Position numbers and translations under genes: made by a program. Below the pieces are notes generated by a model. The model was not told where the DNA came from and searched no databases. It was given only the letters and a program-made list of their open reading frames with translations. 57,545 nucleotides of DNA from a virus. Positions 3,191 to 57,448 of this stretch are shown here, in pieces. The stretch spans positions 1 through 57,545 of the IMG/VR virus record IMGVR_UViG_3300010413_000035, one strand, 5' to 3'. Every line of letters begins with the position of its first letter. The stretch's first letter is position 1.

Positions 3191-3523
3191 ATGAAATATT
3201 TTAGTCGTAGAACAGTTAATAATGACAAAAAAGCTTTTCAAATGATAAAATTATTAATTGAAAATGATAAACTAACAACAACTCAACTATCTAATTTACT
3301 TGATATTTCTTCAAGGCAAATTTCAAATTACAAAAGATATATAAATGATTGCTTGGGAATAAAAATAAATGTAACTTTAGGGAATCAAGGAGGCTATTCA
3401 ATAGAATCAAGAAAATTGAATAGTAAAGAAATATCTTTTTTAAGAGATAAGCTACCAACAAAATTATTTAATAAAATCAATCATATAAATAAACTTAGTA
3501 TTTTATTTGAGGAGGATTCATAA
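3191..3523 (+). CDS. winged helix-turn-helix regulator (DeoR/HTH_11-like)
   Basis: 110 residues. Residues about 30-72 read as a winged HTH: LTTTQLSNLLDISSRQISNY forms the helix-turn-helix and GNQGGYSI the wing, as in HTH_11/DeoR N-terminal domains. No sensor domain follows, only about 30 residues ending acidic. It is the first gene of the head operon and ends one base before the methyltransferase start, with the methyltransferase ribosome binding site inside its 3' end. Position and size suggest a transcription factor for late genes or an autoregulator; this is inferred. The DNA-binding fold is fairly secure. Confidence 0.75.
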   Translation: MKYFSRRTVNNDKKAFQMIKLLIENDKLTTTQLSNLLDISSRQISNYKRYINDCLGIKINVTLGNQGGYSIESRKLNSKEISFLRDKLPTKLFNKINHINKLSILFEEDS

Positions 3524-3524
3524 A

Positions 3525-4787
3525 ATGGAATTACAAAAAATAAAAATTAAAGATTTGAAAAATGCAAAATATAACCCTAGAAAAAAATTAAAGCCAGAGG
3601 ATGAAGAATTCCAAAATATAAAAAAATCAATTGAAACTTTTGGATATGTTGAGCCTGTTATAGTAAACAAAAAAGATAATACAATAATTGGAGGACATCA
3701 AAGGGTCGCTGTTATGAGCGATTTAGGGCTAAAAGAAATTAAGTGCTGTATGGTTGATATAGATAAGGAAAAAGAAAAGGCTCTAAACATTGCACTTAAT
3801 AAAATAACTGGGGAATGGGATTTTAAAAAATTAACTAGTTTATTAGATGAAATTAAAATTGATAGTGATGATAATTTTTTTGCAACTGGTTTTAATGAAG
3901 AAGAATTTATTAATTTAAATGAAGAATATGGAACTAAAGAAAAATCAAAAAGTAATGATATAGAAGTTCAAGAAGATAATTTTAATGTTGAAAAAGAAGC
4001 TGAGAAAATTGAAGAAGCAACAGCCAAATTAGGCGATTTATATAAATTGGGAAAACATTTTTTATTATGTGGAGATGCTACAAGTCCAGAAGATGTGAAA
4101 AAATTACTTAATGGAGTCGAGCCGACACTTATGGTAACTGATCCCCCTTACGGTGTAAACTATGACCCAGAATGGAGACAGCAAGACCATTTTGGAATAG
4201 GGAAAAGGTCGACTGGTAAGGTAAAAAATGATGACATTGTTGACTGGAGTAGTGCTTATAATTTATTCCCAGGTGATGTTGCTTATGTTTGGCACGCTGG
4301 GAAGTATACCCACAAAGTAGCTCAAAGTTTAGAAGATTCTAATTTCCAATTAATTACTCAGATAATTTGGGTAAAACAACATTTTGCAATATCAAGGGGA
4401 GATATACATTGGCAACATGAGCCATGTTGGTATGTTTGTAAAAAAGGTAAAACCCATAACTGGCAAGGAGCGAGAAATATTTCTAGTACTTGGAATATAA
4501 AAAATAATAATGCTTTTGGGAATTCAGCCAATAAAGAGCAGACATATGGACATGGAACTCAAAAACCTATTGAATGCATGTTAAGACCTATTATCAATAA
4601 TACATCGGTCGGACAGTGTGTATATGATTGTTTTGGTGGAGCTGGTACTACATTAATCGCAGCTGAACAAAGTGGTCGAGTTTGTTATATGATGGAATTA
4701 GACCCAGTTTATATTGATTGTATTATTAAAAGATTTGAAGACTTTACTGGTGAAAAAGCAAAGTTAATATCTGGAGTTGATACCTAA
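3525..4787 (+). CDS. ParB-like domain fused to DNA adenine/cytosine-N4 methyltransferase
   Basis: 420 residues starting at the ATG behind GAGGAGGATTCATAAA. The N-terminal 90 or so residues are a ParB/Srx-like domain (NPR near 17-19, GGHQR near 56-60). The C-terminal half is an N6-A/N4-C methyltransferase: DPPYG at about 206-210 (motif IV) and D-C-FGGAGTT at about 368-376 (SAM-binding motif I). The order DPPY then FxGxG is that of beta-class enzymes. ParB-methyltransferase fusions are common next to phage terminases. They probably methylate phage DNA, either to evade restriction or to mark packaging sites. The stop codon overlaps the start of the terminase small subunit (TAATG). Confidence 0.92.
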   Translation: MELQKIKIKDLKNAKYNPRKKLKPEDEEFQNIKKSIETFGYVEPVIVNKKDNTIIGGHQRVAVMSDLGLKEIKCCMVDIDKEKEKALNIALNKITGEWDFKKLTSLLDEIKIDSDDNFFATGFNEEEFINLNEEYGTKEKSKSNDIEVQEDNFNVEKEAEKIEEATAKLGDLYKLGKHFLLCGDATSPEDVKKLLNGVEPTLMVTDPPYGVNYDPEWRQQDHFGIGKRSTGKVKNDDIVDWSSAYNLFPGDVAYVWHAGKYTHKVAQSLEDSNFQLITQIIWVKQHFAISRGDIHWQHEPCWYVCKKGKTHNWQGARNISSTWNIKNNNAFGNSANKEQTYGHGTQKPIECMLRPIINNTSVGQCVYDCFGGAGTTLIAAEQSGRVCYMMELDPVYIDCIIKRFEDFTGEKAKLISGVDT

Positions 4788-11930: not shown

Positions 11931-12647
11931 ATGTATGAATTAGGTAAATTAAGGACTTATTTACACATGTTAGACAAAGATAAAAATCATTATAATAAAC
12001 TTAAAATTGAAGAAATAAAAATTTTATTATCAAAGCTTGAAATATATTTATCTTATGATGAAAAAGCGTGGGCAAAGAATTTATTGTATAATGATGCAAA
12101 TTTAGTGAGGGAATGGTATCCCAAAAATACATTTACCCAAAGGAGAAGTATAAGAAAATATTCGCATGGTATAACCAATCAAGATTTTCAACATATTTTA
12201 AATAATGTAAATTATGCTCCTTCGAGTTGTAATAGGCAGCCAATAGAATTTATTCTTTTAAGGGATTCAATTACAATTGACAAAATAGCAAAAATAAAAA
12301 AACAATCATTTATAAGTGGAGCTGAGACTTGTATTTTGGTTATTTCAGATTTAAGTATTTACCCACCTAAAAGTGTAAAAAGTAGAAGTGCCTCGTTTTG
12401 GTATTTTTTATATATGGATGCAGGTGCCTCAATCCAAACTTTACTTTTAACAATTTCAAAGTTAAATTTTGGAGCTTGTTGGGTAAATTGCATTGAATCA
12501 GATAGTAACAAAATAAAACAAATAAAAAAATTAGAATTAGAATTAGCAAAAAATAAAATAGTAACAGCAATAATTCCAGTTGGAGTTCCTAGTGAAATAG
12601 TTAAAACTCCAGGACGCAAAGATGCGAAATATAAAATTATAGAATAG
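11931..12647 (+). CDS. nitroreductase-family flavoprotein
   Basis: 238 residues. The C-terminal 170 are a nitroreductase domain: RRSIRKY (71-77), APSSCNRQP (96-104), DAGASIQ (163-169), GACW near 181-184 and an ending with the PGRKDAKYKI pattern. The first 65 or so residues are an extra helical extension. The family uses FMN and NAD(P)H. In polysaccharide gene clusters, members are often found beside pyruvyl transferases, as here, but their substrate there is not established. It opens the glycan cassette, behind GAGGAGGAATTTATA. Confidence 0.88.
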   Translation: MYELGKLRTYLHMLDKDKNHYNKLKIEEIKILLSKLEIYLSYDEKAWAKNLLYNDANLVREWYPKNTFTQRRSIRKYSHGITNQDFQHILNNVNYAPSSCNRQPIEFILLRDSITIDKIAKIKKQSFISGAETCILVISDLSIYPPKSVKSRSASFWYFLYMDAGASIQTLLLTISKLNFGACWVNCIESDSNKIKQIKKLELELAKNKIVTAIIPVGVPSEIVKTPGRKDAKYKIIE

Positions 12648-12658
12648 GAGATATTAAA

Positions 12659-13720
12659 ATGAAAATAGCAATCGTAACAATTACGACATATTCAAATTAT
12701 GGAAATAGATTCCAATTAATAGGATTAACAAAATACTTACAAAATAAAGGGTATGAAGTAGATAATTTAATTCCCTTTTCCCCTACTTCAAAAAAGAAAA
12801 AGAAAAAAAATAATTTAAGAGCCGAGAAAAGAAAATCATTTTTTGAATTTTCACAAAAATATATAAATGAAATAAGGCTTGATGTAAATAAAGTTAATTA
12901 TGAAAAATTAATTAATGAATATGATTATTTTATAATAGGAAGTGACCAAGTTTGGCATCCCCTATTATTAAAAAAAATTCCACATCCTTTTACATTTTTA
13001 AACTTTGTACCAGATAAAAAAAGAATTGCTATTTCAGCTAGTTTTGGAATGAGCCAAATTGCTGACAGATATTTTATAAGGTATGTTGAAGGGTTAAAAC
13101 ATTTTAATAATATTTCTTTAAGAGAGCCAGAAGGCAATAATATTATTAAAAATTTATGCTTAGAAAATTATAACAATCCAGTTTTAATTGATCCTTCAAT
13201 GTTATTATCTAAAAAACAATATGCAAAACTAGGAGAACAAATAGAAAAACCAAAGAATTATATATTAACTTATTTTCTAGGGAATATAAGTAGTGATATA
13301 AGAATGAAAATTAGTGAATTATCCCTAAAATATAATTATCAAATTATAAATATAAATAATAAAAGAAATAAAAAATATTTTGTTGCATCTCCAGCTCAAT
13401 TTATATATTTAATGAATAGTTGCAATGTAGTATTTACAGATTCATTTCATGGGACTATTTTTTCAATGATATTTAGAAAACCTTTTGTAAATGTAGATTT
13501 GAAATTAAATAGACCTTCAGTACAAAGTAGAATAGATAATTTACTTTCAAAATTTAATTTTATGAATAGAAAGTTTAAAGAATTAAATACATTAAAACAA
13601 ATTATGACTATTGATTACTCACATTTTGACCCAATTTTAAAAGAAGAAAAAAATAAATTTAATGAATTCTTAGAAGGAGTAACAAATGGCAAAGAAGAAG
13701 AAACAACAAATAATTCCTAA
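12659..13720 (+). CDS. polysaccharide pyruvyl transferase family protein
   Basis: 353 residues. It carries the family pattern: an N-terminal nucleotide-binding-like start (MKIAIVTITTYSNYGNRFQL), YFIIGSDQVWHP (about 97-108), SLREPEG, VLIDPSMLL and the C-terminal TDSFHGTIFSM with RKPFV. Such enzymes add a pyruvate ketal from phosphoenolpyruvate to a sugar of a surface glycan, adding negative charge. It starts 11 bases after the nitroreductase and overlaps the following glycosyltransferase by 35 bases. Confidence 0.9.
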   Translation: MKIAIVTITTYSNYGNRFQLIGLTKYLQNKGYEVDNLIPFSPTSKKKKKKNNLRAEKRKSFFEFSQKYINEIRLDVNKVNYEKLINEYDYFIIGSDQVWHPLLLKKIPHPFTFLNFVPDKKRIAISASFGMSQIADRYFIRYVEGLKHFNNISLREPEGNNIIKNLCLENYNNPVLIDPSMLLSKKQYAKLGEQIEKPKNYILTYFLGNISSDIRMKISELSLKYNYQIININNKRNKKYFVASPAQFIYLMNSCNVVFTDSFHGTIFSMIFRKPFVNVDLKLNRPSVQSRIDNLLSKFNFMNRKFKELNTLKQIMTIDYSHFDPILKEEKNKFNEFLEGVTNGKEEETTNNS

Positions 13721-14363
13721 ATTATTACACTTGATATGGATAGGGGAAAAAGAAAACCCCTATTTAAAAAATATTGAAACTTATAAAAAATTTAATCCAG
13801 ATTGGCAAATTAAAATTTGGAATAATGAAAACATACCCCAAGTTATAAATAAATATACTTATAATAATATGACTTCATGGGCAGGTAAAGTTGACGTTCT
13901 AAGGCTTGAGATTTTATATAAATATGGTGGGGTTTATGTTGATTTGGATTCAATATGTTTAAGAAGTTTAAATCCCTTAATAATAAATCAAACATTAATC
14001 GGGTCAAAAGGTACATATAAAAAAATTGCTAACGGTTTTTTAGGATGTACCAAAGAACATCCTGCATTTAAAGAAATAGTAGAAAATTTAGATTCTAGAA
14101 ATAAAGAACTTTCAAAAACAGAAAAAAACAAAAAAATTGGTATTTCAATTTATGCAGTGGCTGGGACTCGATACATAACCCCATATTTAAGAAAATATAA
14201 ATGTCTGGAATATGATAAAAAATTAAAAGCTAAAGAAAGAAAAGTTATAATTACTAAAGTTTCAAAGTATAAAAACCGAGCCTTTATAATGCAATTAAAT
14301 GATAATACATGGAAAAGTAGTCCAAGGATATTTTTAAGTGAGGATTTTGAAAATGACAAGTAA
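13686..14363 (+). CDS. glycosyltransferase (Gly_transf_sug / capsular polysaccharide type)
   Basis: 225 residues. IPKLLHLIWIG at 10-20 and a 63-90 stretch that includes KVDVLRLEILYKYGGVY, with the DXD metal site at D86-L-D88, define the DXD sugar-transferase family (Och1/TcdB-like GT-A fold). It probably transfers a sugar from a nucleotide sugar to the growing glycan. The start is supported by AGAAGGAGTAACAA. It is short but seems complete. The donor and acceptor cannot be read from sequence. Confidence 0.88.
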   Translation: MAKKKKQQIIPKLLHLIWIGEKENPYLKNIETYKKFNPDWQIKIWNNENIPQVINKYTYNNMTSWAGKVDVLRLEILYKYGGVYVDLDSICLRSLNPLIINQTLIGSKGTYKKIANGFLGCTKEHPAFKEIVENLDSRNKELSKTEKNKKIGISIYAVAGTRYITPYLRKYKCLEYDKKLKAKERKVIITKVSKYKNRAFIMQLNDNTWKSSPRIFLSEDFENDK

Positions 14364-14691
14364 AAAAGAAAAACTAATACATGATTTAATAGATGTGACT
14401 TTATTGGAATCAAATTTAAAACATGGATTTAATTTTAATTCTAGTCATGAAGGCTGGGCTGTTACTTTAGAAGAAATAGAAGAGTTTCAAGAGGCTTTTG
14501 ATGAAATTATAAATTATTTTTCCGATATTGTTTGGACTGATATTAGAAATGATTCAAATAATAGCAAATTAAAAACTGAATATTCAAAATTATATAATAT
14601 GTGTTTAAATGCCTTTTTAGAATTTTTGCAATTAACTGCAATGATGAAAAAAAACAAAAATTATTTTTTTGGGAAGGAGATAAAAAAATGA
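14353..14691 (+). CDS. MazG-like nucleotide pyrophosphohydrolase candidate
   Basis: 112 residues from the ATG behind GTGAGGATTTTGAAA. The pattern KHGFNFNSSHEGWAVTLEE (about 23-41) followed by EIEEFQEA (41-48) and a later FLQLTAM helix (about 97-103) resembles small all-alpha NTP pyrophosphatases of phages, with E40, E41, E43 and E44 as likely metal ligands. Here it may control nucleotide pools or clean up nucleotide-sugar side products. The gene overlaps both neighbours by a few bases (11 and 4), showing tight coupling. Confidence 0.65.
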   Translation: MTSKKEKLIHDLIDVTLLESNLKHGFNFNSSHEGWAVTLEEIEEFQEAFDEIINYFSDIVWTDIRNDSNNSKLKTEYSKLYNMCLNAFLEFLQLTAMMKKNKNYFFGKEIKK

Positions 14692-15371
14692 AAAAATTTG
14701 ATGTAATTTTTTTAATGGGGGGAGAAGGGAAAAGAGCCAGACTTGGTTACCCTAAGCAATACGCTCGTATAGGTGGAATACCGATTTTTATACATTCGAT
14801 ACAAGCTTTTTTAAAAGAAGATATCGAGCCATATATAAATAAAATAATTATAGTAGCACAAAAAGAGCGATATGATGAAATAGAAAAAATGTTAATTCAA
14901 TATAATATTTTTAAATATTGTTTTTGTGAAGGTGGGAAAACAAGGCAAGAATCCGTTTATAATGGTTTAAAAAGTGTAAAGACTAAACACTTATTAGTTA
15001 CTGAATCTGTTAGACCTTTTCAAAGTTCTAAATTAATAAAAAATATAATAAATAATGAAAAAAATTTTATTACTCCAATATCTCAACCAAAAGCGACTGT
15101 TATTGATATTTTTGGCAATTCATATGACAGGGATAGAATCGGAGAGGTACAAATGCCTCAAAAATATAGTTACGATTTATTGCATACAGCTCACGAAATC
15201 GCAAAGAAAAGGGATTTATATAATTTTACAGACGATGCTCATTTAGTAATAGAATTAATAAACGAATGTCCATATATTATAAAAGGTGAAGAAGTAAATA
15301 TAAAAATAACAACTCCCCTCGATTTGAAAATAGCTAATATTATTTTAAGTGATTTGGAGGATAATGAATAA
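14688..15371 (+). CDS. IspD/TarI-like cytidylyltransferase
   Basis: 227 residues from the ATG behind GGGAAGGAGATAAAAAA. Family motifs in order: GGEGKRARLG (11-20), PKQY (22-25), GGKTRQESV (82-90), MPQKY (156-160), TDDA (181-184) and NIKITTP (204-210). These enzymes make a CDP-alcohol from CTP and a polyol phosphate. In this setting, a ribitol-phosphate (TarI-like) or similar substrate is more likely than the isoprenoid one. One oddity: the usual DAxRP motif reads ESVRP (106-110), with Asp replaced by Glu. It is coupled to the SDR gene through a one-base overlap. Confidence 0.88.
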   Translation: MKKFDVIFLMGGEGKRARLGYPKQYARIGGIPIFIHSIQAFLKEDIEPYINKIIIVAQKERYDEIEKMLIQYNIFKYCFCEGGKTRQESVYNGLKSVKTKHLLVTESVRPFQSSKLIKNIINNEKNFITPISQPKATVIDIFGNSYDRDRIGEVQMPQKYSYDLLHTAHEIAKKRDLYNFTDDAHLVIELINECPYIIKGEEVNIKITTPLDLKIANIILSDLEDNE

Positions 15372-16003
15372 TGTTAGAATCAAAACATATAGCAATTTCT
15401 GGAACTACTAAAGGCTTGGGACTAGAATTGTCCAGACTATATTCAAAAAATAAATATTCAATAGTTGATATAAATAGATATAACGATTTAGATGTTACTA
15501 AAGAATATGCCATAAAAATTTTATTTGATGAAATACCAAAATATGAATATCCAGAAATTTTAATTAATAATGCTGGGATTTGTAATATTGGAAGTATTCT
15601 GGACTCAAATTTAGAAGAATCAAAAAAAATGTTTGATGTTAATTTTTGGGGTATGGTTAACTGCAGTAAATATTATTCTAAGAATTGCATTAAAAATAAT
15701 GTAAAAGGTAAAATTGTAAATATTGCATCAACAGCAGGAACTGGAATTAGACCTGGTCGTTCTATGTATGCAAGTAGTAAATCGGCAGTTATAAATTATT
15801 CAATGTCAATAGCTGAAGAATTAAAAATTTTTGATATTAAAGTTTATTGTATAGCTCCAGGAGCTTTTGATTCATCACTTAGAAGGAATTTGAAACTTGA
15901 TGAAGATTATTCAAAAATGAAAACATCAAAACAAGTTGCAGAAATAGTAAAAAATATTGTTGATAATGATTTTTTAGACAATCAAATAATTTATATAAAG
16001 TAA
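15371..16003 (+). CDS. short-chain dehydrogenase/reductase
   Basis: 210 residues. Rossmann motif GTTKGLG (11-17), NNAG (66-69), catalytic S120, Y133 and K137 (YASSK). Its first base is the last base of the cytidylyltransferase stop codon. In Haemophilus Bcs1/Acs1, a cytidylyltransferase is fused to an SDR that reduces ribulose 5-phosphate to ribitol 5-phosphate. This gene pair looks like the split form of that arrangement. The alditol-phosphate reductase role is inferred from context, whereas the SDR fold and intact active site are clear. Confidence 0.9.
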   Translation: MLESKHIAISGTTKGLGLELSRLYSKNKYSIVDINRYNDLDVTKEYAIKILFDEIPKYEYPEILINNAGICNIGSILDSNLEESKKMFDVNFWGMVNCSKYYSKNCIKNNVKGKIVNIASTAGTGIRPGRSMYASSKSAVINYSMSIAEELKIFDIKVYCIAPGAFDSSLRRNLKLDEDYSKMKTSKQVAEIVKNIVDNDFLDNQIIYIK

Positions 16004-16019
16004 GAAAGGATATTAAATA

Positions 16020-17159
16020 ATGTTAGTAACTATAATTAATAAAGCACACTTTAAAATTGAAATTGATGGAGTTATATTTCTCCCATTTGAAATTAAAAAA
16101 TTGAATGTTTATAGTACATCGGAATTTTATAAAAAAATAAGATGTAATAAAAATTTGGTTGATGAGGCTATATTTGATATAAAACATTTTAAAAAGACTT
16201 TTGGAATTGACAAATTAGGCAAAGAGTTTAATTTTGTTTATGATGAAAATAGCCAACATAAAAGGGATAATTATAAATTTGCCATTCAAGCAATGGCAAA
16301 TCCTATTTTAAAATATTTTTCACCAAAAGAGGCTGGATTTTCAAGTCGACCATTACCTGGTCAAAGTTACAACGCTTTAAATATTAGGTTTTTTAATTCA
16401 ACTAGAATAAAACAAAATGGGAAAACTCAAGTTGGTAAGCGTGATATTTTTTATTCACATGGTTGTGCCGATAAAAATTACTGGTTAGGAAAACATATTA
16501 AGGATTTTAAATATGCCTTTTGTATTGGCAAAGTATGGGAGGATAGAATGAGAGCCACAGGTTATAAAGGCGAAATAATACATATTGGATATCCAAAATT
16601 AGACCCAATTTGGAATAATGAAGTAGAAGAAAATAAAATTGAGGCTGGTAATAAGCCTTATATTGCGTGGTTGCCTACACATGGATATTCACATAAAAAT
16701 CGTGGTCGTTCCAGTTACCCTTGGTGTCTTGATTTAATAAGGGACATTGATGATATATATTATAAAAAATTAGGTATGCATCCAACTAGTAAAAAACATA
16801 ATGGAATTAAGCACAAACCAACATTTAACGAGTTAGTTGATGCAGATGTTATAATTGCCGATGCAGGATCGACAGTTTACGAGGCGTGGATGGTAGGAAA
16901 ACCTGTCATTATGCCAGATTGGATTTGCAAAAAAGATATTTTAAATCATTTTAAAAGTGACAATTTAGAATATCAAATTTATAAAAAGGGTATTGGATAT
17001 CATGCAAAAGATATGAGACATTTAAACCAGCTTATTGAAAAGGCTTTAGTTGATGGAATTGATCAAAGTGCCAAAGAATTCATCGAGAAAATTTGCCCGA
17101 CCGAATATAGAGGAAATTCTGGAAAAATGGCTTATAAAGCGTTAAAACAAATATATTAA
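16020..17159 (+). CDS. TagF/TarL-like CDP-alditol phosphotransferase (glycerophosphotransferase family)
   Basis: 379 residues. A GT-B type transferase: SHG at 146-148, HIGYPKLDPIW near 188-198, LPTHGY (218-223), GMHPTSKKH (252-260, H254) and IADAGSTVYEAW (279-290) with KPVIMPDW. This is the pattern of CDP-glycerol/ribitol glycerophosphotransferases that build teichoic acids. The first 90 or so residues are not typical for the family. It would use the CDP-alditol made by the two preceding genes and attach phospho-alditol units to a host wall glycan or a virion protein. The acceptor is unknown. Confidence 0.85.
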   Translation: MLVTIINKAHFKIEIDGVIFLPFEIKKLNVYSTSEFYKKIRCNKNLVDEAIFDIKHFKKTFGIDKLGKEFNFVYDENSQHKRDNYKFAIQAMANPILKYFSPKEAGFSSRPLPGQSYNALNIRFFNSTRIKQNGKTQVGKRDIFYSHGCADKNYWLGKHIKDFKYAFCIGKVWEDRMRATGYKGEIIHIGYPKLDPIWNNEVEENKIEAGNKPYIAWLPTHGYSHKNRGRSSYPWCLDLIRDIDDIYYKKLGMHPTSKKHNGIKHKPTFNELVDADVIIADAGSTVYEAWMVGKPVIMPDWICKKDILNHFKSDNLEYQIYKKGIGYHAKDMRHLNQLIEKALVDGIDQSAKEFIEKICPTEYRGNSGKMAYKALKQIY

Positions 17160-36854: not shown

Positions 36855-36883
36855 TTTAAATCCCTTAAGAAATAAGGTATAAT
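36855..36883 (+). promoter_or_regulatory. promoter
   Basis: TTTAAA (36855-36860), 17-bp spacer, TATAAT (36878-36883), upstream of the small gene at 36918. No recurring operator visible. Confidence 0.65.
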
Positions 36884-36917
36884 GTATACTTATTATTTTT
36901 TAAGGGATGTGTTGTAT

Positions 36918-37130
36918 ATGATATTAGAAAGAATTAAATTAATTATAAAATGTATATTTGGGATTATATTTAGCTGGGAGACTTTGAATGTTTATTTTTT
37001 TACTAATGAAGAATTGGAAAATTTTAAACTAGATGAGTATATAGAAGAAGTTAGTAAAATTTACGAAAACAAAGAAAATATAAAAGTTGAAGAAGATATT
37101 AATATATATGTTGATGGTGAAATAGTTTAA
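36918..37130 (+). CDS. small protein with N-terminal hydrophobic helix, 70 aa
   Basis: Starts at the ATG behind TAAGGGATGTGTTGTAT. The frame reaches back to 36882, before the expected transcription start. Residues 6-22 are hydrophobic with basic residues, possibly membrane-associated; the rest is acidic. It forms a single-gene unit with its own promoter and terminator. Unknown. Confidence 0.65.
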   Translation: MILERIKLIIKCIFGIIFSWETLNVYFFTNEELENFKLDEYIEEVSKIYENKENIKVEEDINIYVDGEIV

Positions 37131-37142
37131 TAAATGTTATAA

Positions 37143-37193
37143 TGAAATGGAAATTTAAAAATCTATTATGGATTTTTGTTTTTCCATTTTTTT
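37143..37193 (+). terminator. large intrinsic terminator
   Basis: Paired ATGGAAA...AAAATC and GATTTTT...TTCCAT arms followed by a T-tract. It shields the iteron region from the left. Confidence 0.85.
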
Positions 37194-37244
37194 ATCAAAA
37201 CTTTTTTTATTTATTTCAACATTTTTTTATTCAGATTTACATAT

Positions 37245-37291
37245 AAAAATAACTAACTTTAGATTATTATAATCATAAGTTAGTTATTTTT
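37245..37291. terminator. perfect 15-bp hairpin, bidirectional terminator
   Basis: AAAAATAACTAACTT (37245-37259) pairs exactly with 37277-37291 across a 17-base loop. A- and T-rich arms make it usable in either direction. A related hairpin is at 32613-32648. Confidence 0.85.
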
Positions 37292-37356
37292 GTGTTTAAT
37301 ATTTACAAACATATTTTTTCTAAAATTATATATATTATATTCATTTTTTATAATTT

Positions 37357-37566
37357 TTGCTAGATACAAATTTATATTTTTTGCTAGGTTAAAATCTTGC
37401 TAAGTAAAAACTTGCTAGTTAAAAATTTTTGCTAAGTAAAAACTTGCTAGTTAAAAACTGCTAATTAAAAATCTTTGCTAGAAATAAATATTGCTTTGCT
37501 AGAAACAAAAATTACCTGCTAGAAATAAATATTGCCTTGCTAGGAATAAAATTAAATCCTTGCTAA
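37357..37566 (+). repeat. iteron array, forward half: 12 copies of TTGCTA[A/G]
   Basis: Copies begin at 37357, 37381, 37397, 37412, 37429, 37444, 37458, 37475, 37496, 37516, 37537 and 37560. Ten are exact, and two (37458, 37516) start with C. Spacing is 14-24 bases. All have the same orientation. No gene overlaps the array. Confidence 0.93.
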
Positions 37567-37581
37567 GCCTGGTATTACTAG

Positions 37582-37786
37582 TTAGCAATGATTTTTAAAT
37601 TTAGCAAAGATTTATTGTTATTTTTTTTAATTTAGTAATAAATTTAAATCTAGCAAAAATTTTTAACTAGCAAAGATTTATTATTAGCAAGAAATTTTAT
37701 TTCTAGCAAAGATTTTATAAAAATAATTTTGTTTTTAGCAACTTAAAGCAAGTAAAATTTTTACATTTTGACTTTTTACCTAGCAA
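37582..37786 (-). repeat. iteron array, inverted half: 8 copies of [C/T]TAGCAA
   Basis: Copies begin at 37582, 37601, 37650, 37667, 37684, 37703, 37735 and 37780, all opposite in orientation to the left half. The switch point is near 37574. A 23-bp segment at 37412-37434 is the exact reverse complement of 37651-37673. This arrangement suits an origin or partition-type site; see findings. Confidence 0.93.
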
Positions 37787-37848
37787 GAAAAAACAGCAAA
37801 TTAAATTTTTAAATAATTTGCTATCTACCCAAATTCAATATTTAATTT

Positions 37849-38166
37849 TTACAAATAATTTTCTGTATTTTTTTTATTAAGAATTGCAAATTTTTTATCA
37901 ATTGGGCAGTATGCTAAATAAAATTCTTTGTTTTTAAATTCTATTGTTTGGCTGCCATTGGAAAAAGAAAAAGTAGTATCATTTAAAAGAATTAAACTTT
38001 CTTTTGTTTTTTCATTGCTGAAATTATCAATAAAATTTTCTATTTCAAGCCAGTTCCCTTTTTCAATTAAAATAATATATAATTGTTTTGATAATAATAG
38101 CCTCTTATATTTATTAAAATCAATTAAGTAATAGTTTTTACCATTGTGTATTATTTTATCAATCAT
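37849..38166 (-). CDS. hypothetical protein, 105 aa
   Basis: Not recognised. GAAAGGACTGATATAA precedes the ATG at 38166. A compact alpha/beta protein with Tyr/Leu-rich segments and one Cys. It lies after a terminator and next to the iteron array. An adjacent small gene might encode an array-binding protein, but no DNA-binding motif is apparent. Confidence 0.7.
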   Translation of the reverse strand: MIDKIIHNGKNYYLIDFNKYKRLLLSKQLYIILIEKGNWLEIENFIDNFSNEKTKESLILLNDTTFSFSNGSQTIEFKNKEFYLAYCPIDKKFAILNKKNTENYL

Positions 38167-43579: not shown

Positions 43580-43870
43580 TTAAAAATTTTTTGGCAATAG
43601 TAAACTTAAAGTATCTAAAGCTTGGACTATATCACATTTTAATGTTACTGTTTTTTCAGTATTTTTAAGTAATGTAATTAAATAAAAATATTGCACTCGA
43701 TTTATTTCATATGCTTTTAATATTTTATTTAATGAATTTTTTGTTTCTATTTCTTTTATTTCTCCTAACCTTTTAAAACCATTTTTATAAATTTCTATAG
43801 TTCTTCTTATAGTTCTATGTTCTATATCTATTTTTTTAGAAATATTGTAAGTATTTAATAAAGTATTCAA
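43580..43870 (-). CDS. Rha-like small regulator, TTG start
   Basis: 96 residues. NISKKIDIEHRTIRRTIEIY (about 9-28) and YEINRVQYFYLITLL (about 54-68) follow the Rha N-terminal pattern (a compact DNA-binding-like domain with later Y.LT). It is much shorter than full Rha. It starts at TTG behind AGGGGGAG. First gene of the replication ATPase operon, so it may autoregulate replication. Confidence 0.62.
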   Translation of the reverse strand: MNTLLNTYNISKKIDIEHRTIRRTIEIYKNGFKRLGEIKEIETKNSLNKILKAYEINRVQYFYLITLLKNTEKTVTLKCDIVQALDTLSLLLPKNF

Positions 43871-43971: not shown

Positions 43972-44139
43972 ACTTACATAAAACAATATCATAAATATAT
44001 TAATTATTGTAAGTTATTAACAACAATTACAAACAATCGCAAGTCAGGCGTTAATAAAAGCTAAAAAAAGCAATCTCTTAAATGAAATTAGTTACTTCAA
44101 AAGGGAAAAAGAATAATTTTATTTTAAGTGATTAAAAAA

Positions 44140-44591
44140 GTAACAGAATTAAGTAACAAAGTAACCTTTGAAAAGTAAAAATGTTACCAAAAGTGTTACC
44201 GACTGAAAACCCTTGATATAACTAGTCTATAAGTATATATATATTATATATATAATAATATAATAATATATATATATAATATAGTAATACCAATACATAT
44301 AAGGAATATATAATATATATTGGTAACAAAGTAACACTTTAAATAATATATATATATATAATAAAAAAATATATTTCTATATGATAAAAAATTATATAAA
44401 AATATATACATATATAGATAATTTTTTTAGTGTTACTTTGTTACTTTTTCAAACATGCTTATATCAACGGGTTCAAGGTTGGAATAATATGTTATTTTTT
44501 TTAGTGTTTCCTTTGTAACATAGTGATACCAATGTTTGTAAAGGAGTAACTTTTGGGTAACACTTTTTTTTAGTGAAAAGTGTTACCGACT
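44140..44591. repeat. GTAAC/GTTAC repeat array around an AT core
   Basis: GTAAC at 44140, 44153, 44161, 44323, 44331, 44515, 44546 and 44557; GTTAC at 44183, 44195, 44432, 44440 and 44582. AAAAGTGTTACCGACT is repeated directly at 44189-44204 and 44576-44591. GTAACAAAGTAACACT (44323-44338) is inverted at 44429-44444. The block between them is mostly TATATA-type sequence. Confidence 0.88.
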
Positions 44592-50847: not shown

Positions 50848-50920
50848 AAGGCTATAGTTCAAAGGAAGGATACTCCTAGGGGCAGTGGAGAGATTTACAG
50901 TTCGAGTCTGTAATAGCCTT
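50848..50920 (+). tRNA. tRNA-like element without a canonical anticodon loop
   Basis: 73 bases. Acceptor AAGGCTA/TAGCCTT perfect. U8-A9 are followed by D stem GTTC/GGAT with G18-G19-like GG at 50864-50865. The T arm is TTACAG-TTCGAGT-CTGTAA, with a canonical loop but 6 bp instead of 5. The anticodon arm has only CTCC/GGAG (50873-50876, 50887-50890) around a ten-base loop TAGGGGCAGT, and no U33-anticodon-purine arrangement can be placed. The CCA end is not encoded. It is either a decayed tRNA or a tRNA mimic. Confidence 0.68.
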
Positions 50921-51041
50921 ATAGTAAGTAAACAAATTGATTAATAGGAAAATAGTCACATAATAATAATAATAATAACAATTTATCCCGATACCCTATA
51001 AATATCGGGACTCCCTAGAAAGAACGAGTCAAATAATTAGT

Positions 51042-53530: not shown

Positions 53531-53574
53531 AAAAAAAGAAGCTTAGAAAATAAAAATTCTAAGCTTCTTTTTTT
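53531..53574. terminator. bidirectional terminator, AAGCTT family
   Basis: AAAAAGAAGCTTAGAA-type arms as at 53059-53101. It serves both the plus gene to its left and the minus Rha gene to its right. Confidence 0.93.
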
Positions 53575-54319
53575 ATTTATTTAAATTATTAAATTCAATT
53601 TGTTTAAATTCTATATTTGGCAATACTTCTTTAACTCCTAAACTATTACTCATTTCGACAACTCTTTTTTTAGCTATTTGAAATATTTCTTTATAAAATA
53701 ATTCCTTTTTCATTCCTTCAATAATTGCAGTTTTAACAATCATATCTGCAACTATAATTTTACTAAGTTGTGTTATATTTAAGATTTCTCTTACATTTTT
53801 AAATTTTTCTTGTAGCATAAAAAAAGCTGAATTTTCCATTTTTGAAAACAACATATAATATCTATCTGCTGACTTGCTACCTTGTTTTTTAGCATATTGA
53901 ATAAAATCTTTTATAATATCGGTTTCTTGCTTTCTTCCTATTTTAGAACGGTTTCTTGTTTCTATATATTGTTGATTCTGCTTTTGTGTTTTTTGTTCTA
54001 GTATCCATTTACGCATATTAAAAAACTCTTTTGTTATTTTCTTTTTAAATTCCAATACTTTGTCATTTTCATTTTGTTTGACTCTTAACATCATAATTAA
54101 AAATGTTAATTGCTGTTCGTTTAAATAGTAAATTATGGTAGGTTTTCCATGTCTTTGGGACATTTCAAATTCTATTACTTTATTTTCCAATTCGTCAAAA
54201 TCTTTTCTATATTGTTTAATTAAATTTGATATACTTTTATGAGTTCTTTTCAATTCCCTTGAAACTATTAAACTAGTTGTTAATGGTTCATTATTTTTCA
54301 ATAAAACTAATGCTGTCAT
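53573..54319 (-). CDS. Rha-family regulatory protein
   Basis: 248 residues. The N-terminal Rha domain spans about 12-110: TTSLIVSRELKRTHKSISNL, a FEMSQRHGKPTIIYYLNEQQ segment and LTFLIMMLR. A second helical domain (about 140-240) is family-specific. Phage Rha proteins act in phage-host regulation and are often linked to antirepression. GGAGTTAAACA precedes the ATG. Its promoter carries two 18-bp direct repeats, consistent with autoregulation. Confidence 0.85.
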   Translation of the reverse strand: MTALVLLKNNEPLTTSLIVSRELKRTHKSISNLIKQYRKDFDELENKVIEFEMSQRHGKPTIIYYLNEQQLTFLIMMLRVKQNENDKVLEFKKKITKEFFNMRKWILEQKTQKQNQQYIETRNRSKIGRKQETDIIKDFIQYAKKQGSKSADRYYMLFSKMENSAFFMLQEKFKNVREILNITQLSKIIVADMIVKTAIIEGMKKELFYKEIFQIAKKRVVEMSNSLGVKEVLPNIEFKQIEFNNLNK

Positions 54320-56480: not shown

Positions 56481-56606
56481 ATGACTTGTGGAATATGTGG
56501 AAGTAAAGTGGAAGACACTGGAGAAATAAGAACTGACGACAGTGGAAGAAGATGGAAAAAATATAAATGTGTAAAATGTGGAGCTACTAAAGAAGTAGAA
56601 GACTAA
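56481..56606 (+). CDS. zinc-ribbon microprotein, 41 aa
   Basis: Starts MTCGICGSKVEDTGEIRTDD, with CGIC (3-6) and CVKC (30-33). TAGGGGGTTTTATATT before the ATG. It is alone between an operator promoter and a terminator, a complete single-gene cassette. It resembles the 50663-50791 protein. Confidence 0.8.
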   Translation: MTCGICGSKVEDTGEIRTDDSGRRWKKYKCVKCGATKEVED

Positions 56607-56647
56607 AAAAAAGAAGCTGAGATTTTTTTATTTCTCAGCTTCTTTTT
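56606..56647 (+). terminator. intrinsic terminator, AAGCTGAG type
   Basis: AAAAAGAAGCTGAGA and TCTCAGCTTCTTTTT arms. Related to the AAGCTT-family terminators, with paired changes in the stem. Confidence 0.93.
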
Positions 56648-56664
56648 AATTATTTTTAAAAAAT

Positions 56665-56696
56665 GTATTGCAATGTAGCACATAAAGAGTTATAAT
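56665..56696 (+). promoter_or_regulatory. early promoter cassette with operator
   Basis: TTGCAA (56668-56673), 17 bp, TATAAT (56691-56696), operator GTATTGCAATGTAGCAC (56665-56681). Its leader shares TATTAGAAGTTGAGG with the others, but the closing arm of the hairpin has decayed. Confidence 0.9.
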
Positions 56697-56746
56697 AGTA
56701 TTAGAAGTTGAGGGAACACTAATTATTATTTAAGGGAGAGATTATT

Positions 56747-57448
56747 ATGTTAAATACTAAAATTGATGAATTATACAAAAATGTTGAGTTTACTTCAAAA
56801 GTTGGATATATGACTAAAGGGGATGTAATAAAACAGATAGATTGTTTGTTAGAAAATATTATAGTTGAATATTACGTAATTGAAAAAATAGAAACTAGAT
56901 TAAATAAAAAAGTAAAAAAATTAAATTCAAAAAGTAGAAGTTATGAAGAACTTTGTAAAATTAGAAAAGTATTAGAAGATGAATTTATTGACCAATTACC
57001 AGACGAATATAATTTGCCAGAAGTTGAAGAAGAAGAAGAAACAACAGAAGTTGAAGAAGAAGAAGAAACAACAGAAGTTGAAGAAGAAGAAGAAACAACA
57101 GAAGTTGAAGAAAAAGAAGAAACAACAGAAGTTAAAACAAATATTAATAATATAAATTCAATAGATTACAAAAAAATAAAAAATGTATTATTAGAAAAAA
57201 AAGGGATAAAAATTATAAAAGAAAGAAGACAATTAAACAGATTTAAATATGTAAATTGGAAAAATGAATATCATTATTTAAACCTTGAGGAATTGATATT
57301 ATTATATTTAAATACTATAGGGCTTGATAATGGTAAATATGAAGAATATAAAAAAGCAAAAAAACAAAAATTAAAAAATAAATATGAAAAGTTAAAAGAA
57401 AAAAGATTAAATTTTAAAAAAGAAGTCGCAGCATTTTATAACAGTTAA
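56747..57448 (+). CDS. early protein with EVEEEEETT tandem repeats, 233 aa
   Basis: AAGGGAGAGATTATT before the ATG. The N-terminal 85 or so residues are helical. Four nine-residue EVEEEEETT repeats (about 92-127) form a very acidic linker. The C-terminal 105 residues are basic and helical, with KYEKLKEKRLNFKKEVAAF at the end. Two domains joined by a variable acidic hinge are seen; the function is unknown. The gene runs across the window overlap (its end is also at 1-47). Confidence 0.78.
   Translation: MLNTKIDELYKNVEFTSKVGYMTKGDVIKQIDCLLENIIVEYYVIEKIETRLNKKVKKLNSKSRSYEELCKIRKVLEDEFIDQLPDEYNLPEVEEEEETTEVEEEEETTEVEEEEETTEVEEKEETTEVKTNINNINSIDYKKIKNVLLEKKGIKIIKERRQLNRFKYVNWKNEYHYLNLEELILLYLNTIGLDNGKYEEYKKAKKQKLKNKYEKLKEKRLNFKKEVAAFYNS
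57020..57127 (+). repeat. 27-bp tandem repeat, four units
   Basis: Units begin at 57020, 57047, 57074 and 57101. The first three are identical and the fourth has one G-to-A change. In frame, encoding EVEEEEETT. Confidence 0.95.

Follow-up and report, generated by a model that had tools for sequence, protein, structure and literature searches.

An oriented TTGCTA repeat array shared by AT-rich phages, a candidate bidirectional transcription boundary

In the ParR/parC and TubR/tubC systems, the centromeres are arrays of short direct repeats to which small proteins bind. Short palindromic repeats are also found clustered at 3' ends in REP/BIME elements, mostly between convergent or co-directional genes, and are proposed to affect termination, mRNA stability and supercoiling (PMC3733652). 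Here we describe a TTGCTA repeat array in the virus record IMGVR_UViG_3300010413_000035, analysed over its whole 57,545 bases (the window; G+C 25.9%). Like REP/BIME, it consists of short palindromic repeats in an extragenic 3' position. It differs in forming one cluster per phage genome instead of many dispersed copies, in a consensus (TTGCTARRTAYAAA) free of the GTAG/CGTC tag, and in its absence from the sampled bacterial genomes, where no dispersed high-copy distribution was seen; nor was a Y1 (RAYT)/REP transposase found in nine array-bearing phage genomes, which weakened a REP-transposase reading. Bidirectional intrinsic terminators are a second likeness: a hairpin between convergent genes, with an A-run before it and a T-run after it. 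Ordinary terminators of this kind occur elsewhere in the array-bearing phages; the TTGCTA arrays differ from them by their 10-19 copies of one conserved unit and by long same-orientation runs, which exceed what a terminator needs. Our preferred reading, held tentatively and somewhat short of an even chance, is that the array serves as a bidirectional transcription boundary in a REP/BIME-like position and that a putative factor would also recognise its repeats.

The window is an AT-rich Caudoviricetes genome with genes for an SPP1-type portal, capsid, tape measure and amidase; the terminase large subunit gave a weak match only. Its ends are identical over 144 bases, so that the genome is probably complete and to be read as a circle. 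The window holds 57 copies of TTGCTA, 19 of them inside 37357-37823: 19 exact copies in 467 bp, where the frequency elsewhere in the genome predicts 0.4 (log10 p about -25). This is the strongest local 6-mer cluster of the window; the densest 450-bp stretch elsewhere holds 4 copies. The original prediction of about 20 motifs at 37357-37786 proved real, although one of the 19 exact copies, a forward outlier at 37818, lies beyond that interval. Twelve forward copies had been claimed: the left field (37357-37565, plus strand, consensus TTGCTARNNANAAA) does hold twelve forward units, of which ten are exact and two are CTGCTA variants (TGCTA at 37459 and 37517). The eight inverted copies of the right field (37583-37786, minus strand) were all recovered as exact TTGCTA.

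The symmetry of the two fields withstood scrutiny as well. A strict orientation switch, predicted near 37574, falls between 37560 and 37583, and so few runs are rarely obtained by chance (p = 0.0005). At the switch stands a pivot hairpin (37545-37602, AAATCCTTGCTAA-loop-TTAGCAATGATTT) with a fold of -13.1 kcal/mol on the plus strand. The 23-bp stretch at 37412-37434 (plus) is indeed exactly inverted at 37651-37673 (minus), and a further perfect inverted repeat of 21 bp joins 37468-37488 (plus) to 37696-37716. Spacings of 14-24 bases, as first described, hold for most neighbours.

The array occupies a gap between convergent units, as predicted, bounded by gene ends at 37130 and 37849. An 82-aa ORF (36882-37130, plus strand) reads into it from the left and a 105-aa ORF without family match (37849-38166, minus strand) from the right. 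The insulating terminators announced on the left are present: a terminator-like hairpin with T-run follows the left gene (37141-37195, plus strand, -14.7 kcal/mol), and a second one is built on the inverted repeat AACTAACTT/AAGTTAGTT (37240-37299). The right gene has its own terminator-like hairpin (37795-37822, minus strand, -10.9 kcal/mol), which includes most of the TTGCTA outlier at 37818. Ordinary terminators thus stand on both outer sides of the array, which is therefore not needed to end those transcripts. A promoter array, in which TTGCTA and TATAAA one unit apart would leave a 17-bp spacer, was rejected: promoter-like sites are not in excess in the window (12 found, 13.9 expected).

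Pattern scans of IMG/VR revealed dense arrays of the same extended motif in at least a dozen AT-rich environmental phage contigs, and nine array-bearing records were fetched whole or in large part. Each of these nine carries exactly one TTGCTA cluster. The consensus over all array copies, TTGCTARRTAYAAA, is common to two phage lineages of 57-59 kb and 35-42 kb. The first (G003, G005 and G012; G004 is closely related to G003) has its genes in the order seen in the window, at amino-acid identities of about 30-60%. The second (G006, G007, G009, G011, G013 and G014) has a different backbone and replication module, with few shared genes; G008 looks closely related to G013, and G010 to G011. Recruitment independent of the motif relied on a profile of the tail protein that adjoins the array in the second group. 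In all four recruited contigs extending past the tail gene (L269, L271, L272, L273) the array lies directly downstream of it, L272 and L273 being not independent, as both stem from a single sample and share their array spacing; a fifth contig (L275) ends before the array region. Absence or scrambling in relatives had been named in advance as evidence against the element: the array is present in all relatives covered, its order partly scrambled.

Conservation is concentrated in the hexamer. Among G003, G004 and G005, 114 of 114 core TTGCTA columns are identical, whereas the other columns, about 475 of them, hold 20-49 differences (p between 0.02 and 2e-5), a divergence of 4-10% outside the hexamer. 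In the other two clusters of relatives, where unit number varies, the excess conservation of the core is weaker and mostly non-significant pairwise. Unit number differs even between close relatives (L271, L272, G010, G011), and the L271/G011 subgroup retains only TTGCTAGGT in units of 17-18 bp. A neutral tandem repeat, expanded by slippage in a tolerant intergenic gap, would agree with this variable unit number and with the spread of the array into a coding 3' end in G006 and G013; we nevertheless consider it highly improbable, given a hexamer that stays invariant in G003/G004/G005 while its flanks diverge and an identical motif that recurs in distant lineages. Judged on such grounds, the computed array is a real, conserved and sequence-constrained control element.

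Same-orientation neighbours across the arrays are mostly 14-17 bp apart and inward-facing ones mostly 23-24 bp, which looks as if sites of 14-15 bp abut. The window has the strictest mirror order; in the relatives the order is mixed. Around the best pivot, inward-facing sites outnumber outward-facing ones in G003, G012, G009, G011, L271 and G007, with shuffle p values of only 0.04-0.18; G006, G013 and L269 are without this bias. The inward-facing plan is a tendency, carried mainly by the window.

Genes were called with our own simple ORF picker instead of a trained gene finder. By these calls, genes converge on the array in the window, G003/G004/G005, G012, G006, G013, G009, G011, L269, L271 and L272, and several arrays begin 0-6 bp after a stop codon. 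In G013, and by homology in G006, the array overlaps the 3' part of a gene for an LPXTG-anchored protein. This cell-wall anchor gene adjoining the array is located at 1111-1818 of contig L257 (G013) and 2280-2987 of contig L259 (G006). The exception is G007: its array sits between co-directional genes, to which 16 of the 17 units run antisense, and an ordinary terminator occupies the actual convergent junction of this phage.

Every array examined has a hairpin at its pivot (-10 to -30 kcal/mol), accompanied by A-runs and T-runs in G003, G004, G005, G009 and G012. Pivot stems beside TTGCTA vary yet stay paired (TTC/GAA in G003, CC/GG in G004, TCT/AGA in G012), as compared by eye in few sequences. 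The large hairpin-forming region of the original prediction is borne out only in part, by the recurring pivot hairpin; folding back of the whole array was rejected as a conserved feature, since it is weak or missing in G007 and G013 and not strong in the truncated G014 array. In a simple terminator search with our own scoring, the best terminator at array junctions besides that of the window is usually made of the repeats themselves (G012, G003, G005, G009, G006, G013, L269), at -14 to -21 kcal/mol with a T-run, and at some array junctions none was found on one strand. A stable hairpin followed by a T-run downstream of genes was found in most arrays and strands, not in all. Most other convergent junctions of the array-bearing phages have a compact terminator, a short stem of unrelated sequence.

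We now propose how such an element could work. The array would lie at the junction of two converging phage transcription units. Inverted TTGCTARRTAYAAA pairs, the central one at the pivot, would form hairpins acting as intrinsic terminators for transcripts arriving from either side. The flanking same-orientation units, set end to end mostly every 14-17 bp, would be putative binding sites for a sequence-specific factor, DNA- or RNA-binding, either host-encoded or a fast-evolving phage protein; once bound, it may reinforce the block or protect 3' ends. A transcription boundary is favoured because of the convergent position and the hairpins, both computed along with the T-runs, and the additional factor is favoured as a hypothesis because the same-orientation units are tiled. 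Termination activity, the factor and its role are what we infer from these features. Several observations count against a boundary: the co-directional setting in G007, the long same-orientation runs in G007, G009 and G014, which hairpins do not explain, the reduction to TTGCTAGGT in the L271/G011 subgroup, and the junctions with a one-strand terminator missing.

A replication origin had also been suggested for the TTGCTA array. Iteron origins of plasmids and phages likewise present tandem short sites in an AT-rich gap, and the tiling and AT-rich surroundings of the array would fit an origin or auxiliary origin; it differs from them by its 14-17 bp tiling, its mixed orientation, the lack of a replicase link and a separate origin candidate. 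The latter is a GTTAC/GGTAACA iteron array at 44091-44586, distinct from the TTGCTA element, whose repeats in both orientations surround a TATATA-rich core (about 44220-44420) in a 1.5-kb gene-poor divergent gap. Similar GTTAC-type repeats, with a motif that changes slightly between phages (GGGTTACAA in G007), occupy corresponding gaps near a helicase gene in G003, G005, G012, G007 and G009. The neighbouring gene encodes a DUF927 protein in G012 and a P4-type primase/helicase in G007. Its counterpart in the window encodes a P-loop protein. A six-way alignment gives this protein 23% and 21% identity to the two DUF927-type proteins, and it has no family match of its own apart from a weak DUF87; by inference it would be the replicative helicase. 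The 44091-44586 array is likely the replication origin: it takes the place next to an initiator or helicase gene typical of iteron origins, a link that the TTGCTA array lacks.

The presence of the TTGCTA array is not tied to one type of replicase: G013, which has a DnaB/Toprim helicase instead, also carries it. No GTTAC array was found in the gap examined in this phage. TGTGAC/GTCACA repeats lie near its DnaB-type helicase gene, apparently in a coding region (about 18260-18330 of L256), and are a possible origin of the G013 lineage. With TTGCTA arrays present both in GTTAC-array phages and beside a different replicase, an iteron origin at the TTGCTA locus seems quite unlikely, and the array is most likely a transcription boundary rather than an origin.

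A further rival reading is a Ter-like fork trap, in which inward-facing sites and a polar contrahelicase would stop forks near the zone of transcription convergence. The opposed oriented sites recall Tus/Ter and RTP, and both the inward-facing bias about a centre in a low-transcription gap and the conserved hexamer would suit it. However, 4-7 kb separate the TTGCTA array from the origin candidate in G003, G007, G012 and the window, a location near the candidate and not opposite it, the sites are many and tightly packed, and their orientation is mixed in several relatives: we regard a fork trap as unlikely.

Marker genes were sought in the nine phage genomes by family search. Neither integrase nor resolvase was found, and hence there is no sign of a stable prophage-plasmid; ParA, tubulin/TubZ and actin-like families gave no match, the actin-like ALP_N model being a weak test that matched only one control genome and could miss ParM-like proteins. 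Attachment (attP) arm-type sites and a protelomerase telomere site were weakened or discarded as readings, since neither an integrase nor a protelomerase gene was found in the phage genomes. The original prediction also named a centromere-like partition site; a small repeat-binding protein would occupy such a site, or one that anchors DNA. The tiled 14-17 bp sites of the array may be likened to ParR/TubR-type layouts, and in the window the array is insulated from transcription. Yet inverted pairs are prominent here, neither a partner motor gene nor an adjacent partition-like gene pair was detected, and with partition families and integrase or resolvase unmatched in these genomes we judge this reading improbable.

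No family of DNA-binding or dedicated binder-like proteins is common to all array-bearing genomes. This would suit a decoy or sponge that titrates a host DNA- or RNA-binding protein, for example a defence or stress regulator, as would the high copy number and a motif common to phages with different backbones and apparently similar hosts. The convergent position and the palindromic pairs are left unexplained by titration, to which we assign a small probability. A doubtful but somewhat better possibility is an undescribed class of phage cis-element, an oriented array spread over lineages with different replication modules, acting with a common host factor as a transcription or fork boundary at converging operons. 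Returning to the transcription boundary, one conserved, sequence-constrained array per otherwise divergent phage genome points to a putative recognition factor, whose discovery would reveal how opposing transcription units are kept apart in these phages.

The array region has no match in Rfam or in nucleotide searches of phage and plasmid collections, and the sole match of the motif strings in open-access papers is a Vibrio serotyping-assay paper. Among 84,980 species genomes, the tandem motif pattern gave only three isolated two-unit matches. Triple-unit arrays are absent from 786 sampled bacterial genomes, 391 from the class to which a Lachnospiraceae MAG belongs and 395 from that of a Mycoplasmataceae MAG. 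The genomes covered may not include the true host. Phages of Clostridia are among the nearest named relatives of the capsid, and the LPXTG protein points to a Gram-positive host. The array offers a simple sequence signature by which environmental phages with a probable common host group may be linked.

The window also encodes RecT, a RecD2-like helicase, an ERCC4 nuclease and a primase-like Toprim protein. Protein searches gave two viral relatives only for RecT (28% identity) and none for the RecD2-like helicase or a 704-aa protein. Within the structural region, a gene cluster of sugar or cell-surface type (11931-17159) comprises a nitroreductase, a polysaccharide pyruvyl transferase, an IspD-like cytidylyltransferase and their neighbours, some with homologues in G003 and G012. 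An N6/N4 DNA methylase fused to a ParB-N domain (3507-4787) has 94% identical counterparts in the short IMG/VR contigs L004 and L005. Two genes encode Rha-type regulatory proteins (43580-43870 and 53573-54319), and a tRNA-Pro (agg) gene is located at 50848-50921. Finally, GAAGAA/CTTCTT 6-mers are locally enriched close to the right end (56545-57128), probably in low-complexity coding sequence.
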